This document shows, in pieces, positions 677-8,463 of a stretch of DNA of 64,000 nt. This DNA comes from Fibrobacter succinogenes (lineage in GTDB: Bacteria > Fibrobacterota > Fibrobacteria > Fibrobacterales > Fibrobacteraceae): the NCBI GenBank assembly GCA_902779055.1, contig CACZAD010000007.1, positions 248,001 to 312,000 of the forward strand, written 5' to 3'. Each line of letters begins with the position of its first letter. Position 1 is the stretch's first letter. The position numbers were made by a program, and so were the translations under genes. The notes beneath the pieces are model-generated. The model was given only the letters and a program-made list of their open reading frames with translations. It had not been told where the DNA came from and ran no database searches.

Positions 677-1522
677 TTATCTTTGAGCGGGCGACCAGCG
701 TTTCTTGAATCGGGGCTCGTCGATGATTTTGCCCCAGATGAATCCGCGTCTGACGCTTTCCCTGCTGATCGAACGAACCGTACGGCGCCGTTCCTGTTCG
801 GAACCGTCGACCGTTTCGCTGGCATAGCCGTTTTCGATGTCGCTCTGACGGGCGGCTTCGTTGGCTTCTTCGCGGGCCTTGCGGGCGCGTTCTTCCAGGA
901 TCTTCAGCTGGCTCTGCTTGTCGCTTGTGGCAGGCGATGCGCTCGGCTTGACCGTGGATGTTGTCGTTTGAGCCAATGCTTCCGCTTTCTGTTCGTGCGA
1001 CAGCAGGTTGTTGAGTTCATCGATGTCTTGCACGAGAACTTCGTAGGCGCCGTCTCCCATGTCGTGACCGATAATGCGGTGCTGCTGGAGTTCGTGGATG
1101 AGTTCGATAGCCCGGGCTTCGGATACTTCGAATTCAATCTTGAGGTAGTCGATATCGACTAAGCCCTGCTCGACGATATCCTCTGCGACTTCACGCATAG
1201 TCACCTGGTCACCCAGGCGATGGTAGTTCTCGGGAATGGGCGGCGGCATGGGGGATTCCATTGTTCCCTGCGAGGCCTCGCGCTGCGCATCTTCAAATTG
1301 CCGGATGTACTCTTGCAATTTGCGGGCGGCGAAAGGTTTTGGCGGAGGTTCCGCATCGTCCGTGTCTTCGTTGCCATCGTTGTCGTCGGGAACCGACGAA
1401 GATTCGTCCCTGCGGTTGCGCCACGGGGGTGGCTGCTGCTGGGATTTTTTCTTCGCCTTCTCTGCCCGATTCTGGATAATCGTTATGATTGCCGCGATGA
1501 CGATAAAGATTATTGTTTCCAT
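677..1522 (-). CDS. Membrane-anchored protein with FtsK-gamma-like winged helix, third gene of the nfeD-floA cluster
   Basis: 281 residues. One N-terminal membrane segment (about residues 3-16) is followed by a Lys-rich stretch, a Pro/Asp-rich low-complexity region (to ~75) and a folded segment at ~110-175. That segment reads MREVAEDIVEQG, then EVSEARAIELIHELQQHRIIG, then GAYEVLV. The order and spacing match the winged helix of the FtsK gamma domain (family pattern: G..RAARL...ME..GIVG...EVLV). No ATPase domain is present. A charged coiled-coil-like stretch (~205-235) and a basic C-terminus follow. It lies 34 bases after floA on the same strand and so probably belongs to the nfeD-floA transcript. 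The gene is otherwise unrecognised. The FtsK-gamma resemblance is an inference from pattern. Confidence 0.72.
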   Translation of the reverse strand: METIIFIVIAAIITIIQNRAEKAKKKSQQQPPPWRNRRDESSSVPDDNDGNEDTDDAEPPPKPFAARKLQEYIRQFEDAQREASQGTMESPMPPPIPENYHRLGDQVTMREVAEDIVEQGLVDIDYLKIEFEVSEARAIELIHELQQHRIIGHDMGDGAYEVLVQDIDELNNLLSHEQKAEALAQTTTSTVKPSASPATSDKQSQLKILEERARKAREEANEAARQSDIENGYASETVDGSEQERRRTVRSISRESVRRGFIWGKIIDEPRFKKRWSPAQR

Positions 1523-1556: not shown

Positions 1557-2531
1557 TTACTTCGTAGCTTCCGGGGCGGATCCGATTTCTTTACGCATCT
1601 GCGTGTCGGCTTCGATGTTCTTGAGGTTGTAGTAGTCCATCACGCCGAGCTTTCCGTCGCGGAGGGCAGAGGCCATGGCCATTGGAATCTGGGCTTCGGC
1701 TTCCACGAGCTTTGCCTTCATTTCCATCACCTTTGCCTTCATTTCCTGTTCGGCCGCGAATGCCATGGCGCGGCGTTCTTCTGCCTTGGCCTGTGCAATC
1801 TTTTTGTCGGCTTCGGCACGGTCGGTTTCGAGGATGGCGCCGATGTTCTGGCCCACGTCCACGTCTGCAATGTCGATGGAGAGAATTTCGAAGGCGGTAC
1901 CGGCATCAAGGCCGGAGGCAAGCACCTTCTTGGAGATCATGTTCGGGTTTTCGAGCACTTCCTTGTGGCTCTGTGCAGAACCGATGGAAGACACGATGCC
2001 TTCGCCAACGCGGGCGACAACCGTTTCTTCGCCGGCGCCACCGACGAGCTTCTGGATGCTGGCGCGCACGGTGATTCGGGTGATGGCATGGAGCTGGATA
2101 CCGTCGAGAGCCACTGCGGAAACCTTCGGGGTTTCGATGACCTTCGGGTTCACGGACATCTGCACGGCTTCGAGAACGTTTCGGCCGGCAAGGTCGATGG
2201 CTGCGGCTTCCTTGAAGTCGAGCTTGATGTTTGCCTTGTTGGCGGCGATGAGAGCCTGGATCACGCGAAGCACGTTACCGCGGGAGAGGTAGTGGGCTTC
2301 GAGCAAGTTGGTGTCGACCGGGAGACCTGCCTTGCAGCTGAGAATTCGGGCTTCGACGATGATCTGCGGCGGCACCTTACGGAGACGCATACCGATGAGC
2401 TGGAAAATGCTCACGTTTGCCTTGGAGAACAAAGCCTGAAGCCAAAGGCTAAAGAACTTGCCGATGAAGGCGAGGATGACGATAACGACGATGGCGGCAA
2501 TGATGATGCCAACGGTAAGAAGAGTATCCAT
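1557..2531 (-). CDS. floA: Flotillin-like protein FloA
   Basis: 324 residues, the usual length of bacterial FloA. An N-terminal hydrophobic hairpin-like anchor (residues ~5-35) is followed by an SPFH domain with blocks [31 protein letters not shown] and [20 protein letters not shown]. An Ala/Glu-rich coiled coil follows (about 235-285, [19 protein letters not shown]), then the C-terminal region [18 protein letters not shown]. Family knowledge: FloA forms membrane microdomains and is typically encoded beside an NfeD protein, as here (21 bases downstream of nfeD). AGGAG lies about 8 bases before the ATG at 2531 and supports this start. Confidence 0.95.
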
Positions 2532-2552: not shown

Positions 2553-4109
2553 TTATAAATGCGTGACCCAGATGTGGCCTTCCTGGACGGATTCGACTTT
2601 GACGTCTTGGCCGGCTTCGATGATTTCGCCGTGCGTCTGGACATCAAGGAGCTTGATACTTCCGTCGGGGAGGGTAAAGCTTGCCTGGCCTACGGGGCGT
2701 AAGAATGTCTTTGCGACACCGACATCGCCGACAGAAACGACCTGGACATCTTCGGTCGGGGAGACGGCCGTTTCCATATCGGTCTTGAGCATCGGCGTCC
2801 AGCCTTCGGGCAAAAGCGGAATCAGGTACTTGCTTGCGGCAATCGGGATGATGAGCGCAACTGCGGCACTCCCGAGGACAAAGAATAGTCCGAATAGCCA
2901 GGGCGTGGCGTCAAATGTGGTTTCGACCGTTTCCGGGACGAATTCCGGGATGTTCGCGGAATCAAAGCTCATGATGAGGGCGATGATCATGCAGGCGATG
3001 CCTGCGACGCCAAACAGGAACGTTCCCGGCATCACAAAGATTTCGACGAGGAATAGCGCAATGCCTGCGACTAGCAGGATGGCGGGGAAGTATCCGTCAA
3101 GCTGCGGAGCGAACTGGCCGAGGAATACGATCCCGATGAGAATGATGCCGATGATGCCGAACATCCCAAATCCCGGAGTCTTGAATTCGATGTAGAGTGC
3201 CCCGAATCCGAGAATCAGGAGGATGCCCGCGACTGCGGCGATGCCGCTTGCGATTTGTTCACCGACGGTTGTTTCGACTTCGCTCTTCTTTTCGATGGCA
3301 AGCTTTGTTTCGAAGTCCTCGCGGTTCTTGAACGTGCCTTTGGAGAATCCGAGTTCTTCGGCTTCCTTGTCGGTCATGGTCAAGAGTTCGCCTTCTTTCA
3401 CGAGAATCTTGGGGGCGCCCCAGAATTTCTTTTCGGTACTGTCAAGAACGGAGTATTTCTTGCTTTCGATGATGAGGGTCGTGTCGCGTTCGGTCTTTTG
3501 GCCTTTATCGAGTTTTGCGGTAAGCTCGTAAATTTCGAGTTCTGGTGTTACGAAGGAAGAGGCCAGGAGTTCGGGGTAGCCGTTACGCTGGGCGAGGTTT
3601 CGGAACTTGGCGCGGAGGGGCGATTGGATCTTTTCGCCGACGATTTGCGGTGTGCCGTCGCCGCCCTGGACTATCGGGGCGCAGTCGCCGATGGTCGTTG
3701 CTTCGAGCATGTAGAGCTTTTTGCAGGCGAGGGCGATGAGCGAGCCCGCGCTGATGGCCTTTTTCTTGACAAGGGCTATCGTTTCGGCACCTTTGACGGC
3801 CATGATGGTATCGACGAGGTCGAAGGCGGCATCGAGGCGTCCACCGAACGTGTTGATTTCAAAGACGATGTAGTCTGGCTTCTTTTCGAGCGCTTCGCCA
3901 ATGGCTCGGGCGCAGAATTCGTACATCGTGGGGTCGACATCCCCTTCCAGCTTGATCCAGACGGCCTGCTTTTTGGGGGCGACTATCTCGGTTGCTGTCG
4001 GGGTGGAGTCTTTTACGACTGGCGCTAAATCTGTTGCAGATGCGGTGGCCGCAATGGAAAATGTGGCCAGAATGGCCAAAAAGAAAAAGATTTTTGCAAA
4101 AAGCTTCAT
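2553..4109 (-). CDS. Long-form NfeD: membrane-bound ClpP-class serine protease
   Basis: 518 residues from the ATG at 4109. An in-frame upstream start at 4220 would add 37 residues ahead of a clear signal peptide (MKLFAKIFFFLAILATFS), so 4109 is chosen. Order: signal peptide; a ClpP-like periplasmic domain (~40-240) with FEINTFGGRLDAAFDLVDTI and the serine-nucleophile region AISAGSLIALACKK; four to five membrane segments (~285-430); and a C-terminal OB-fold NfeD domain with VGDVGVAKTFLRPVGQASF and AGQDVKVESVQEG. Proteins of this family act on membrane proteins next to flotillin/stomatin partners. It heads the nfeD-floA cluster. No clear Shine-Dalgarno is seen; a possible TTAACT-N17-TATACA promoter lies just upstream. 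Confidence 0.92.
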   Translation of the reverse strand: MKLFAKIFFFLAILATFSIAATASATDLAPVVKDSTPTATEIVAPKKQAVWIKLEGDVDPTMYEFCARAIGEALEKKPDYIVFEINTFGGRLDAAFDLVDTIMAVKGAETIALVKKKAISAGSLIALACKKLYMLEATTIGDCAPIVQGGDGTPQIVGEKIQSPLRAKFRNLAQRNGYPELLASSFVTPELEIYELTAKLDKGQKTERDTTLIIESKKYSVLDSTEKKFWGAPKILVKEGELLTMTDKEAEELGFSKGTFKNREDFETKLAIEKKSEVETTVGEQIASGIAAVAGILLILGFGALYIEFKTPGFGMFGIIGIILIGIVFLGQFAPQLDGYFPAILLVAGIALFLVEIFVMPGTFLFGVAGIACMIIALIMSFDSANIPEFVPETVETTFDATPWLFGLFFVLGSAAVALIIPIAASKYLIPLLPEGWTPMLKTDMETAVSPTEDVQVVSVGDVGVAKTFLRPVGQASFTLPDGSIKLLDVQTHGEIIEAGQDVKVESVQEGHIWVTHL

Positions 4110-4269: not shown

Positions 4270-7200
4270 ATGAACGATAATTTTTTTAAAAGAAATTTAA
4301 TTGCCTCGTTGCTGTTGGTGGCGTTTTTGTTTGTTGTAACGAACGTATCGTTTTTTTACATCAATCAAAAAGCCATTGATGATAGCTGGGACTCTCTTGA
4401 CGAAGTGGCGTACGCCTCTGAAGCCAAGATGGAGTTCTTGGGCCGTTCCCTTTTGGGTGCCTTGACCAACATTGCGGCCGTGGTGGCTCTCGAAGATAAC
4501 CTGTTGTCCGAGGGTATGGTCCGCATGATTCGCACTTCGCGTATCGGTCCTTTGGTTTCGAAGGCCCGTTTGTATTTGCCGGATGGTCATATTATTGGGG
4601 AGCAGGGGGTCTTTTTCGATTCGTCCTATGCACAGCATTATAATAGAATAGTCTCCCAAAGTCCGTACATTTCGAAGGTGGGACCGGATTTAATCAATAA
4701 AAACGAAGTTGTTTTTGAACAATTTGTGCCTATCCGTCAGCGCGGCCAGGTGGTGGCGATGCTTTCGGCTCTATCCAGCATGTCGCCGTTGTTTGGGTAT
4801 GTCGCTACGAATTCGTTTAAAGGGAATGCTTCGTTGTTTGTCATTGACCGTAGAGATGGCTCCTTTGTTGTCGAAAAGACGGGAAAATGGAAAAATTTTA
4901 ATGAGTTCATAGAAAAGATTAACCCGAAAAGTGGATATTCGACGAATGAGTGGGCCTCTAGCGTGTTGCAGGGCGGTTCCGGTCATTTGGCGTACGATGT
5001 TGTGGGTTCGGACGAGTCCATGCTTTTGGTGTCGCTTCCGCTGTTTGGTGGCTGCTGGTCGTTGGTCCTGTATGTGAACGAGAATATCGCTTTTACGCGA
5101 GTCGATAAAATTCGCCGGTTCTATATCATCATTTCGGCGATAGAACTGCTTGTGATTTTGCTGTACCTGATTCGCGTGGTGTGGAATGCCCGCCGGATGG
5201 CTGAAGCTGAAAGTAGCGAATACTCCGAAATTGCCGATGCCTTGAGCGGAACCTACGAATGCATTTTCTATGTGAACGTTCTGGATGACACGTTCGATAT
5301 GTTCCATTCCGATACGCTCATGAGCAAGCTGCATGACGAAGGGAGCGGAAAGGACTTTTTCTTTGATTCCATTACGAGCCTGAGGCGTAACCTTTATGAA
5401 GACGACGTGGATGTCGTCATGCACTTCATGGAAAAGGGCGCCTTCCTGAAACGTCTTGAAGAAAATACGAGTGCGTCGGTCGAATATAGGCTTGTCATTG
5501 ATGGTGTTCCGCAGTTCTATCGTATGAAGGCGATCAAGTCCAGCAAGGACGAAAACCATGTGATCATCGCCGTCGAAAACATCGATTCCGAAGTCAACAA
5601 GGCGATTGCCCAGCGCCAGGAAATGGATCGCAACAACAGGGTGATTGAATCGCTCGCTTCGGACTTTGACTTTGTGAACTATGTGACTCTTGGCGAAGAC
5701 TCGTCGAGAGATTTTGTGGTGACTTACCGTGCGAGCTCCGTGCTTTTGAAGGCTATTCCTGGCTGGTCCAACGAAAAGCTTTTTTCGAAGAGGATGGAGC
5801 TTTTGCTCAAGTACTTGATTTGCGATTCGGACAAGGTGCAGTTCTATGAACAGACGAACCGTGACCGCCTTGTTTCAAGGCTCAAGTACGAATCTGTCGT
5901 GCATATCAATTTCAAGATCAAGCTCGATGGCAAGGAAGTCTGCTACCAGATGAAGATCATTGCCGACAAGGACGAAATCGGCAACCTCAAGGGTATAGTC
6001 TTTGGTCTGCATAGCGTTGACGAAGAAATCAAGGCGCAGATGGAAATCCAGTCGAAGTTGAAGCGCAACCTCGAAATCATTGATATTCTTTCGGAAGACT
6101 ATACGGCGTTGTTCTTTATGAACCTGGAAGAAAACGTCGATGGCTTGCTTGCCGTGAGCGACCGTATCAAGAAATCCGTGAGCAGGTTCTTTACAAAGAA
6201 CGAGGCGCTTATCGATTCCTTTAGAGGCTATGTCAATACGCTTGTGCATCCGGATGACCGCGAAAAGCTCTTGACGATTGGCAAAAAGGAATACATTGGC
6301 GAACATTTGATGCACCAAAAACGCTTCTCGGTGGTGTTTAGACAGCTTTATAACGATGAATACATGTATACCCGCATGGTGTTTGCTAAGGCGGAGCCGC
6401 TTAATGAACCGCCCAAGCTTGTCGCCGTGGGATTCTCGGAAGTGGATTCGCAGTATAGGGCCGAGTCGGAACATCAGGAGAATATTGAACGTATTATGAG
6501 CCTTTCGGACCAGTTCGAGGCTATTTACGATGTCAATATCGATACGGGTATATTCAGCGTTTCTGTCAGTGGCGAAAAGTTCAATGAGGTCATCGATAAA
6601 AAGACTGGCCAGTTCATGAACTTCTTTGATGAAAGTGGAACGGATATCAGCAAGGTTGTTTATCCGGACGACCAGAAAAATGTACTCGAAGCGCTGAGCC
6701 GTGAAAACATTCTGGCCCGCTTGCAGAACGAAAACTCGTTCTTCTTGGATTACCGTAATGTTCTGGGCGACAAGATTTTGTGGTACCGCATGAGAATCAC
6801 AAAGATGGGCGACTGGTCCAAGTCTCGCCGTGTCCTTGTGGGCGCCTTCAATAACGATGCCGTTTATCGCAAGGAAATGGAACAGCAGGCTGCTCTTGAA
6901 AAAGCTCTTGAAATGGCAAAGTCGGCATCTCGTGCAAAGACGATGTTCTTGAACAGTATGAGCCATGACATCCGCACGCCGATGAATGCCATTATCGGTT
7001 ATACGGAGCTTGCCACGATACATATTACAAATAAAGAACTTGTCCGCAACTTCCTCGGAAAGATTGAGCTTTCGTCGAATCATTTGCTGTCGTTGATCAA
7101 CGATGTGCTTGACATGAGCCGCATCGAGTCTGGAAAGCTCAGCCTGAATGAAAAGCCGGAACGTATCCCGGATCTGATCCATACGCTCAAGGATATTGTC

Positions 7201-8463
7201 CAGGCGGATATCCATTCCAAGCAGTTGCAGTTCTTCGCAAATAGCGTCGACATCAAGAACGAAGAAATTATTTGCGACAAGCTTCGCTTGAACCAGGTGC
7301 TTTTGAACGTTGTCTCAAATGCCATCAAGTACACTCCTGCGGGTGGTTCCATCTGGTTTACCGTTGGGCAGGAAAAGTCCACAGAACCGGGAACCGGAGC
7401 CTACGTGTTTATCATCAGGGACTCGGGTATTGGCATGAGCGAAGACTTCTTGCCGAACATTTATGACCCGTTTACTCGAGTGAATTCTTCGACGGTTTCC
7501 GGTATTCAGGGAACGGGGCTTGGCATGGCGATCACGAAGAACATCGTCGATATGATGAAGGGTTCCATCGATGTCAAAAGCAAGGAAAACGAAGGTACCG
7601 AAGTTGTTCTGAAGTTCAACTTTAAGGTTGCCGATTCGGGTCGTGAAATAGAACGGGTAAAGGAACTTGAAGGCAAGAGGATTCTAGTCGTCGATGACGA
7701 CGAGGATTCTTGCAAGCATATTCCCGAAACCTTTAAGGAATTGGGTATGGAAGCCGAATGCTGCAATTCCGGTGCGAAAGCTTTGGAATTGGCCAAAAAG
7801 GCGAAGGCGGAAGGCTCCTTGTACGATGCGTTCCTCGTGGATTGGCGCATGCCGGGCATGGACGGCATGAAGACAATCAAGATGCTCCGTGAACTGCTTG
7901 GCGACAAAATCCTAGTGATTGTCATGTCGGCTTACGAATGGTCTGATATCGAGGACGAAGCCTCCAAGGTGAATGTTAGCAACTTTGTTGGTAAACCGTT
8001 GTTCCCGTCGGATGTAAAGGACGTGATGCTGATGAGCTTTGGCTTTAAGCAAACCGAGGTCCAGGAATCCGATAAGAATGTGAATTTCAGCGGCAAAAAG
8101 ATTTTGCTTGTCGACGATAACGAGCTGAATCGTGAAATCGCCCAGGAAATCCTGGAAGACTGCGGAATCCAGGTGACGACGGCTTGCGATGGCGAAAAGG
8201 CCCTTGAGTTCATGAAAACGGCGACGAAGGACGACTGTGACTTGGTCTTGATGGATGTCCAGATGCCTATCATGGACGGTTATGAAGCGACCCGACGGAT
8301 CCGCCGGATGGATAGCGATATGGCTAACATCCCGATTATTGCGATGACGGCGAACGCGTTTGCCGATGACCAGCAGGCGGCTCTGGAGGCTGGAATGAAC
8401 GAACACGTGGCAAAACCTGTGAACGTCAACAAGCTGAAAGAGGTGCTGTCGAGGTTCTTGTAG
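4270..8463 (+). CDS. Hybrid sensor histidine kinase with four tandem PAS-like modules and two receiver domains
   Basis: 1397 residues. Two membrane segments (about 12-30 and 280-300) flank an extracytoplasmic sensor of Cache-like layout. The cytoplasmic part begins with four tandem modules of about 140 residues (starting near 317, 457, 601 and 740). Each opens with a pattern such as EIADALSGTYECIFYVN or EIIDILSEDYTALFFMN and ends in Y-R/Q-M-K/R plus a coiled coil. Next come HisKA (SMSHDIRTPMNAIIGYTEL, phospho-acceptor His899) and HATPase_c (NVVSNAIKYTP, DSGIGMS, GTGLGMAI). Two receivers follow, with acceptor Asp1191 (FLVDWRMPGMDG) and Asp1329 (LMDVQMPIMDG). All catalytic motifs look intact. 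The signal and downstream target are unknown. There is no separate response regulator next to it. Confidence 0.93.
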   Translation: MNDNFFKRNLIASLLLVAFLFVVTNVSFFYINQKAIDDSWDSLDEVAYASEAKMEFLGRSLLGALTNIAAVVALEDNLLSEGMVRMIRTSRIGPLVSKARLYLPDGHIIGEQGVFFDSSYAQHYNRIVSQSPYISKVGPDLINKNEVVFEQFVPIRQRGQVVAMLSALSSMSPLFGYVATNSFKGNASLFVIDRRDGSFVVEKTGKWKNFNEFIEKINPKSGYSTNEWASSVLQGGSGHLAYDVVGSDESMLLVSLPLFGGCWSLVLYVNENIAFTRVDKIRRFYIIISAIELLVILLYLIRVVWNARRMAEAESSEYSEIADALSGTYECIFYVNVLDDTFDMFHSDTLMSKLHDEGSGKDFFFDSITSLRRNLYEDDVDVVMHFMEKGAFLKRLEENTSASVEYRLVIDGVPQFYRMKAIKSSKDENHVIIAVENIDSEVNKAIAQRQEMDRNNRVIESLASDFDFVNYVTLGEDSSRDFVVTYRASSVLLKAIPGWSNEKLFSKRMELLLKYLICDSDKVQFYEQTNRDRLVSRLKYESVVHINFKIKLDGKEVCYQMKIIADKDEIGNLKGIVFGLHSVDEEIKAQMEIQSKLKRNLEIIDILSEDYTALFFMNLEENVDGLLAVSDRIKKSVSRFFTKNEALIDSFRGYVNTLVHPDDREKLLTIGKKEYIGEHLMHQKRFSVVFRQLYNDEYMYTRMVFAKAEPLNEPPKLVAVGFSEVDSQYRAESEHQENIERIMSLSDQFEAIYDVNIDTGIFSVSVSGEKFNEVIDKKTGQFMNFFDESGTDISKVVYPDDQKNVLEALSRENILARLQNENSFFLDYRNVLGDKILWYRMRITKMGDWSKSRRVLVGAFNNDAVYRKEMEQQAALEKALEMAKSASRAKTMFLNSMSHDIRTPMNAIIGYTELATIHITNKELVRNFLGKIELSSNHLLSLINDVLDMSRIESGKLSLNEKPERIPDLIHTLKDIVQADIHSKQLQFFANSVDIKNEEIICDKLRLNQVLLNVVSNAIKYTPAGGSIWFTVGQEKSTEPGTGAYVFIIRDSGIGMSEDFLPNIYDPFTRVNSSTVSGIQGTGLGMAITKNIVDMMKGSIDVKSKENEGTEVVLKFNFKVADSGREIERVKELEGKRILVVDDDEDSCKHIPETFKELGMEAECCNSGAKALELAKKAKAEGSLYDAFLVDWRMPGMDGMKTIKMLRELLGDKILVIVMSAYEWSDIEDEASKVNVSNFVGKPLFPSDVKDVMLMSFGFKQTEVQESDKNVNFSGKKILLVDDNELNREIAQEILEDCGIQVTTACDGEKALEFMKTATKDDCDLVLMDVQMPIMDGYEATRRIRRMDSDMANIPIIAMTANAFADDQQAALEAGMNEHVAKPVNVNKLKEVLSRFL

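Follow-up and report, generated by a model that had tools for sequence, protein, structure and literature searches.

The nfeD-floA-gene3 locus

The window is the whole stretch of DNA that was analysed, 64 kb of a Fibrobacter genome. Its open reading frames place nfeD, floA and a third gene, here called gene3, in that order on the minus strand, with gene3 as the last gene. The identities of FloA and NfeD are unambiguous from their family matches, and the original prediction that gene3 is the third gene of an nfeD-floA operon was borne out. The intergenic gaps are 21 bp between nfeD and floA and 34 bp between floA and gene3. The likely start of nfeD is an ATG at 4109, while gene3 starts with an ATG that has an AAGAGG ribosome site 9 nt upstream. 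A tRNA-Asn gene that adjoins a hairpin beyond gene3 is convergent with the operon. The features are as follows:

618-652, no strand assigned: terminator-like hairpin of 16 pairs, between tRNA-Asn and gene3
677-1522, minus strand: gene3, encoding a 281-aa single-pass membrane protein
680-760, minus strand: C-terminal motif ESVRRGFIWGKIIDEPRFKKRWSPAQR, common to floA-operon third genes of Fibrobacterota and Bacillota
833-925, minus strand: predicted helix with QLKILEERARKAREEANEAA (residues 200-230; AlphaFold), conserved among orthologues
1028-1207, minus strand: winged helix, likely derived from FtsK gamma (residues ~106-165; Pfam, hhalign, AlphaFold and PDB matches)
1031-1078, minus strand: wing RIIGHDMGDGAYEVLV (residues 149-164; alignment to E. 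coli FtsK)
1082-1120, minus strand: recognition helix alpha3 (residues 135-147; alignment to E. coli FtsK)
1265-1333, minus strand: conserved helix KLQEYIRQFEDAQREASQG (residues 64-86; AlphaFold helix 64-84; conservation 0.78; dN/dS 0.06)
1334-1462, minus strand: disordered acidic Pro/Gln-rich linker (residues 21-63; pLDDT <50 over 29-63; conservation 0.35)
1469-1516, minus strand: N-terminal membrane helix (residues ~3-18, within a stretch of ~2-20 from sequence; AlphaFold helix 2-28)
1557-2531, minus strand: floA, flotillin-like protein (PF12127, E 2.5e-152; NF010186, E 4e-156)
2553-4109, minus strand: nfeD, long NfeD1b type (NfeD1b_N, E 1e-33; NfeD_membrane, E 5.7e-20)

The gene3 product opens with a membrane helix and a linker; a conserved helix, the winged helix and one more helix follow, and the C-terminus carries a conserved motif, VRRGFIWGKIIDEPRFKKRW. 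The C-terminal tail is disordered in the AlphaFold model. The single membrane helix and the disordered linker that had been read from the sequence were thus both recovered. The membrane helix is followed directly by the basic stretch RAEKAKKK, and therefore, by the positive-inside rule, the tail of gene3 is predicted to be cytoplasmic. Pfam and NCBIfam searches gave no ATPase match in gene3, so that the FtsK motor is absent, as had been claimed. The NCBIfam search returned nothing meaningful; weak matches to YxzE and PFF1_TM in Pfam and to CdvB in NCBIfam were judged to reflect low complexity or chance.

Divergently from nfeD, a 1397-aa protein is encoded at window positions 4270-8463 on the plus strand; from a reading of its sequence it is an apparent hybrid sensor histidine kinase with receiver domains.

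Relationship of the winged helix to FtsK gamma

The winged helix was compared with the FtsK gamma family at the level of both sequence and predicted fold. Residues 109-164 of gene3 matched FtsK_gamma (PF09397) in Pfam with an E-value of 2.9e-5; the HMM check put forward in the original prediction therefore gave a match, but its score of 24.1 bits lies under the family's gathering score of 30.6. The same family was matched independently by 11 of 37 gene3 orthologues, more than any other family, and homologues from the sister genus g19 scored 27.5 and about 31.1-34.2 bits, one of them (L098, 31.1 bits) passing the cut-off. Profile-profile comparison by hhalign of the Fibrobacter gene3 domain with Fibrobacterota FtsK gammas gave a score of 38.1 (E 1.7e-7), with the reversed profile at 10.5 and 20 column shuffles at no more than 15.4. 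For the g15/g19 gene3 domain the corresponding score was 59.7.

AlphaFold predicted a gamma-type winged helix, with pLDDT 85-88 when the full protein was modelled and a mean of 86 for the isolated domain, and FtsK gamma structures were the best PDB matches for both models, in agreement with the fold that had been anticipated. Foldseek ranked 2j5p first in each case, at rmsd 0.9 and 1.2 (the latter over 60 columns, TMt 0.79), with E-values for FtsK gamma of only about 2e-3. With VIA-align, 2j5p, 2ve8 and 2ve9 reached Z-scores of 9.6, 9.3 and 8.7 and the next family 8.0; on the other model the FtsK gammas reached 9.4, 9.3 and 9.3 and the next family 8.5. With margins this narrow and Foldseek E-values this modest, the fold alone is no proof of descent.

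A single-sequence search of the PDB with gene3 gave no match. When the domain profile was used instead, a segment of gyrase A (E 0.0015) came out level with FtsK 2j5p (0.0018), and given this, the sequence evidence for FtsK gamma descent is modest by itself. Since a gamma-type winged helix is predicted, gyrase A was not accepted as a relative, and its match is probably convergent. The gyrA gene of one genome (G041, L092:2815-4914) also matched the full gene3 profile. Taking the sequence and g19 evidence together, the gene3 winged helix likely descends from FtsK gamma.

The domain shares with the FtsK gammas of E. coli (2j5p) and P. aeruginosa (2ve8/2ve9) the fold, the order of helices and strands, a hydrophobic core pattern ending in IIG...EVLV and detectable sequence homology. 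It differs in having no motor, in being acidic and in the replacement of its KOPS and phosphate contacts; moreover, gamma forms the C-terminus of the ATPase in FtsK, whereas in gene3 it lies in mid-protein, behind a membrane helix. The genome's true FtsK gamma is located elsewhere (G000:C7:331948-332133, 59.4 bits). In a gamma-domain tree a long branch set all gene3 domains apart (100/100), and the donor FtsK therefore cannot be named. We regard the gene3 domain as derived from the FtsK_gamma family and do not class it as a functional gamma.

A floA-linked third-gene family

Co-occurrence with floA and nfeD, also put forward as a check, was found throughout the phylum. Of 67 sampled Fibrobacter genomes, 65 carried a gene3 orthologue and the other two were only 70-71% complete; a third gene with the C-terminal motif followed floA at all 48 readable Fibrobacterota loci, as counted by script and by eye. 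This count includes one locus with an inserted open reading frame between the two genes (L039) and one with only a 57-aa open frame (L104). The insertion at L039:2074-2500, in a single Fibrobacter genome, is an open frame of 136 aa. At L104:3804-3977 (G053), the 57-aa frame after floA carries the C-terminal motif and has no in-frame membrane helix. One genome (G131) has two floA loci (L113 and L114), each with its own third gene bearing the motif.

Across the remaining genera of the family, the N-terminal helix and C-terminal motif are retained in the gene that follows floA; in other Fibrobacterota classes that gene likewise ends in the motif and has no winged helix. The winged helix was found in the third gene only in Fibrobacter, g15 and g19, and was absent from g16, g17, g18 and g20-g24. 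The gamma-like domain is thus a lineage-specific insertion into the third gene of the floA operon. The FloA tree unites Fibrobacter, g15, g19 and g16 in one group with support of 94/97, just below the starred level; one gain at the base of this group and one loss in g16 therefore suffice.

Outside the phylum, five floA loci were examined, all of them records from a plasmid collection. A third gene with the C-terminal motif lay beside floA in Paenibacillus, Acetoanaerobium and Listeria (3/3 Bacillota), and none was found at the Bacteroidales loci (Parabacteroides and Bacteroides), so that FloA is not always dependent on a third gene. The Bacillota genes resemble gene3 in lying directly downstream of floA, in their N-terminal membrane helix and disordered middle, and in the C-terminal motif (AIVWSEVLGPPRAKRPW, AIITKEILDKPVSLR and AVIMKEIIDRPLSMR in Paenibacillus, Listeria and Acetoanaerobium collectively), but they have no winged helix and are about 150-200 aa long. 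The window's gene3 has the features of this family: a position directly downstream of floA, an N-terminal membrane helix and a motif of the type [AG][IVF]xWxxILxxPxxxR. Searches for gene3 relatives on plasmids and for FloA in viral contigs found none.

A profile of the motif, 29 positions long, was then used to search whole genomes. It found the floA neighbour in 14 of 14 floA-bearing genomes, a recovery to be expected since most of the target sequences were already in the profile, and no second match elsewhere in these genomes was better than E 0.04. Nothing was found in five of six floA-less genomes; in the sixth, whose assembly is highly fragmented, a match lay at the edge of a contig. This restriction of the motif to floA neighbours makes the linkage look functional, while linkage need not mean binding.

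The third gene is part of the yqeZ-yqfA-yqfB operon in B. subtilis (PMC3498285; PMC8144471), where YqfB can be likened to gene3 by operon position only (PMC3498285), and in Thermus it was called 'of unknown function' (PMC2636767). Our literature search found no description of the floA third gene beyond operon position, and no paper joining the FtsK gamma domain and flotillin. In S. aureus, the OB-fold domain of NfeD is reported to bind FloA, and the complex to stabilise unfolded membrane proteins (PMC11222466); this complex involves the same two partner genes as the gene3 operon, and the available part of that paper describes no third component. The FloA-NfeD microdomain system is widespread in bacteria and is described as a unit of two components. 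Going beyond the original prediction, gene3 belongs to a widespread floA-linked family whose constants are the membrane helix and the C-terminal motif. The results suggest that the system has a conserved third component, bearing a short candidate docking motif in both phyla where it was found, and this general claim may be the more useful of the two results. The other is that gene3, with its domesticated FtsK gamma, represents a variant of an operon member that was known but uncharacterised.

Altered DNA-contact surface and possible role

The residues with which FtsK gamma reads DNA were located in gene3 by aligning 37 gene3 sequences with the FtsK set, using E. coli MG1655 FtsK as the reference. 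N1296, R1300, E1303 and E1306 of E. coli correspond to A137, E141, H144 and Q147 in the window's gene3, and Y1295 to E136. The claim that the usual recognition-helix Asn is Glu was therefore off by one: N1296 aligns with Ala, and the Glu changes are Y1295 to E136 and R1300 to E141. The latter is the more telling. R1300 is required for full KOPS recognition in E. coli FtsK, where R1300A and E1303A mutants are defective in it (PMC2680272). At the R1300 position, 21 of the 37 gene3 sequences have Glu and none has Arg; at that of K1318, all 37 have Gly. In place of R1320, an invariant residue of the FtsK set, the family has Tyr, Cys or His (Tyr in the window), and S1283, S1285 and R1289, near-invariant in that set, are mostly Asp, Asn or Glu. 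The net charge of the winged helix is -10 in the window's gene3 and -3 to -15 across the family, compared with -1 to +6 in 16 gammas from the phylum (14 FtsK, 2 stand-alone). Gene3 has neither the KOPS-recognition residues (R1300, E1303, E1306) nor a basic or neutral DNA face, in line with the earlier doubt about KOPS binding.

Selection was measured as dN/dS pooled over ten close pairs. Values were 0.17 for the winged helix, 0.06 for helix 64-86, 0.12 for the C-terminal motif and 0.36 for the linkers, the last possibly inflated by alignment errors. Gene3, including its winged helix, is under purifying selection. Residues M155, G158, E169 and N172, in the wing and just after it, are invariant among orthologues.

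The original prediction left open whether the module binds DNA or protein. The acidic charge and the replacement of the KOPS and phosphate contacts, mostly by Asp or Glu, mean that DNA binding is not supported, and the domain probably binds no DNA, although acidic winged helices could bind nucleic acid. The protein half of the claim is the better alternative, and a protein is most likely the ligand. In E. coli FtsK gamma, the KOPS-binding surface has a protein ligand as well, XerD, which is contacted by the ends of alpha2 and alpha3 and the loop between them (PMC5052618); since one face serves both, a swap from DNA to a protein ligand is plausible.

Our preferred explanation, to which we give a probability of roughly 0.55, is that gene3 encodes an adaptor conserved in flotillin operons: its tail would dock on FloA or NfeD, and its domesticated gamma domain would bind a protein partner. 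As third component of the nfeD-floA operon, this protein would span the membrane once and have its tail in the cytoplasm, on the same side as the contact between the NfeD OB domain and FloA (PMC11222466). The motif at the end of the tail is constant and therefore a natural candidate for docking on FloA or a FloA-NfeD assembly. An FtsK gamma winged helix would have entered the disordered tail in the common ancestor of Fibrobacter and its nearest genera; it would then have lost its basic and KOPS-reading residues and turned strongly acidic. Held on flexible tethers, it may now present its binding face as a protein-binding module, presenting or recruiting a partner at flotillin microdomains. With its DNA face turned acidic, this piece of the FtsK pump would then be a clear example of a chromosome-segregation domain reused at the membrane.

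Other explanations were weighed against the same observations. Descent from a DNA-reading domain, together with the membrane tether and flexible linker, would suit a protein that holds chromosomal DNA at flotillin patches, in a KOPS-like or non-specific manner, but the inverted charge and the loss of R1300, K1318, R1320 and the S1283/S1285/R1289 group make this unlikely. Another possibility is a generic GntR- or DeoR-like winged helix of other origin in a membrane-bound regulator, and here too the acidic surface argues against DNA binding. Winged helices do resemble one another, and a few orthologues gave weak matches to these families (GntR E 0.0013, DeoR E 3.9e-4); FtsK_gamma, however, was the family matched most often and with the best E-value; its cut-off is passed in g19, its structures come first in the structure searches, and we consider the generic origin improbable.

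Rather unlikely, too, is that the membrane helix and C-terminal motif carry the whole function of gene3, with the winged helix serving as a structural spacer or for self-association. While g16, g17, g18, g20 and all other classes manage without the domain, its purifying selection and invariant residues speak against such a passive part. A regulator or decoy of the Xer/FtsK system, binding XerD, FtsK or another partner and so linking flotillin domains to dimer resolution, could draw on the known XerD contact of E. coli gamma, and as the host FtsK keeps its own gamma, a second one could compete with it. The residues replaced in gene3 sit on that same XerD-binding surface, however, and no genomic link to xer genes was seen; we consider this unlikely. 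That the charge-inverted gamma at flotillin microdomains still binds a chromosome-terminus partner (XerD, FtsK or another gamma-binding protein) seems a long shot; if true, the resolution of chromosome dimers, or division, would be coupled to the state of the membrane domains.

Two observations concern other FtsK gammas of the phylum. Those in the FtsK proteins of Fibrobacter, g15, g16, g17 and g19 (L157-L164) scored only about 50-65 bits, where most of the phylum reaches 70-102; in them R1300 is often Lys and N1296 Ser, and KOPS reading by Fibrobacteraceae FtsK may differ. Motor-less FtsK gammas also occur in three other Fibrobacterota proteins. Two are small, with 179 aa (L154:2840-3379, plus strand) and 156 aa (L155:2667-3137, minus strand), and the third (L156:2465-3541, minus strand) has 358 aa, with a zinc-ribbon-like N-terminus, the gamma domain and C-terminal hydrophobic helices.
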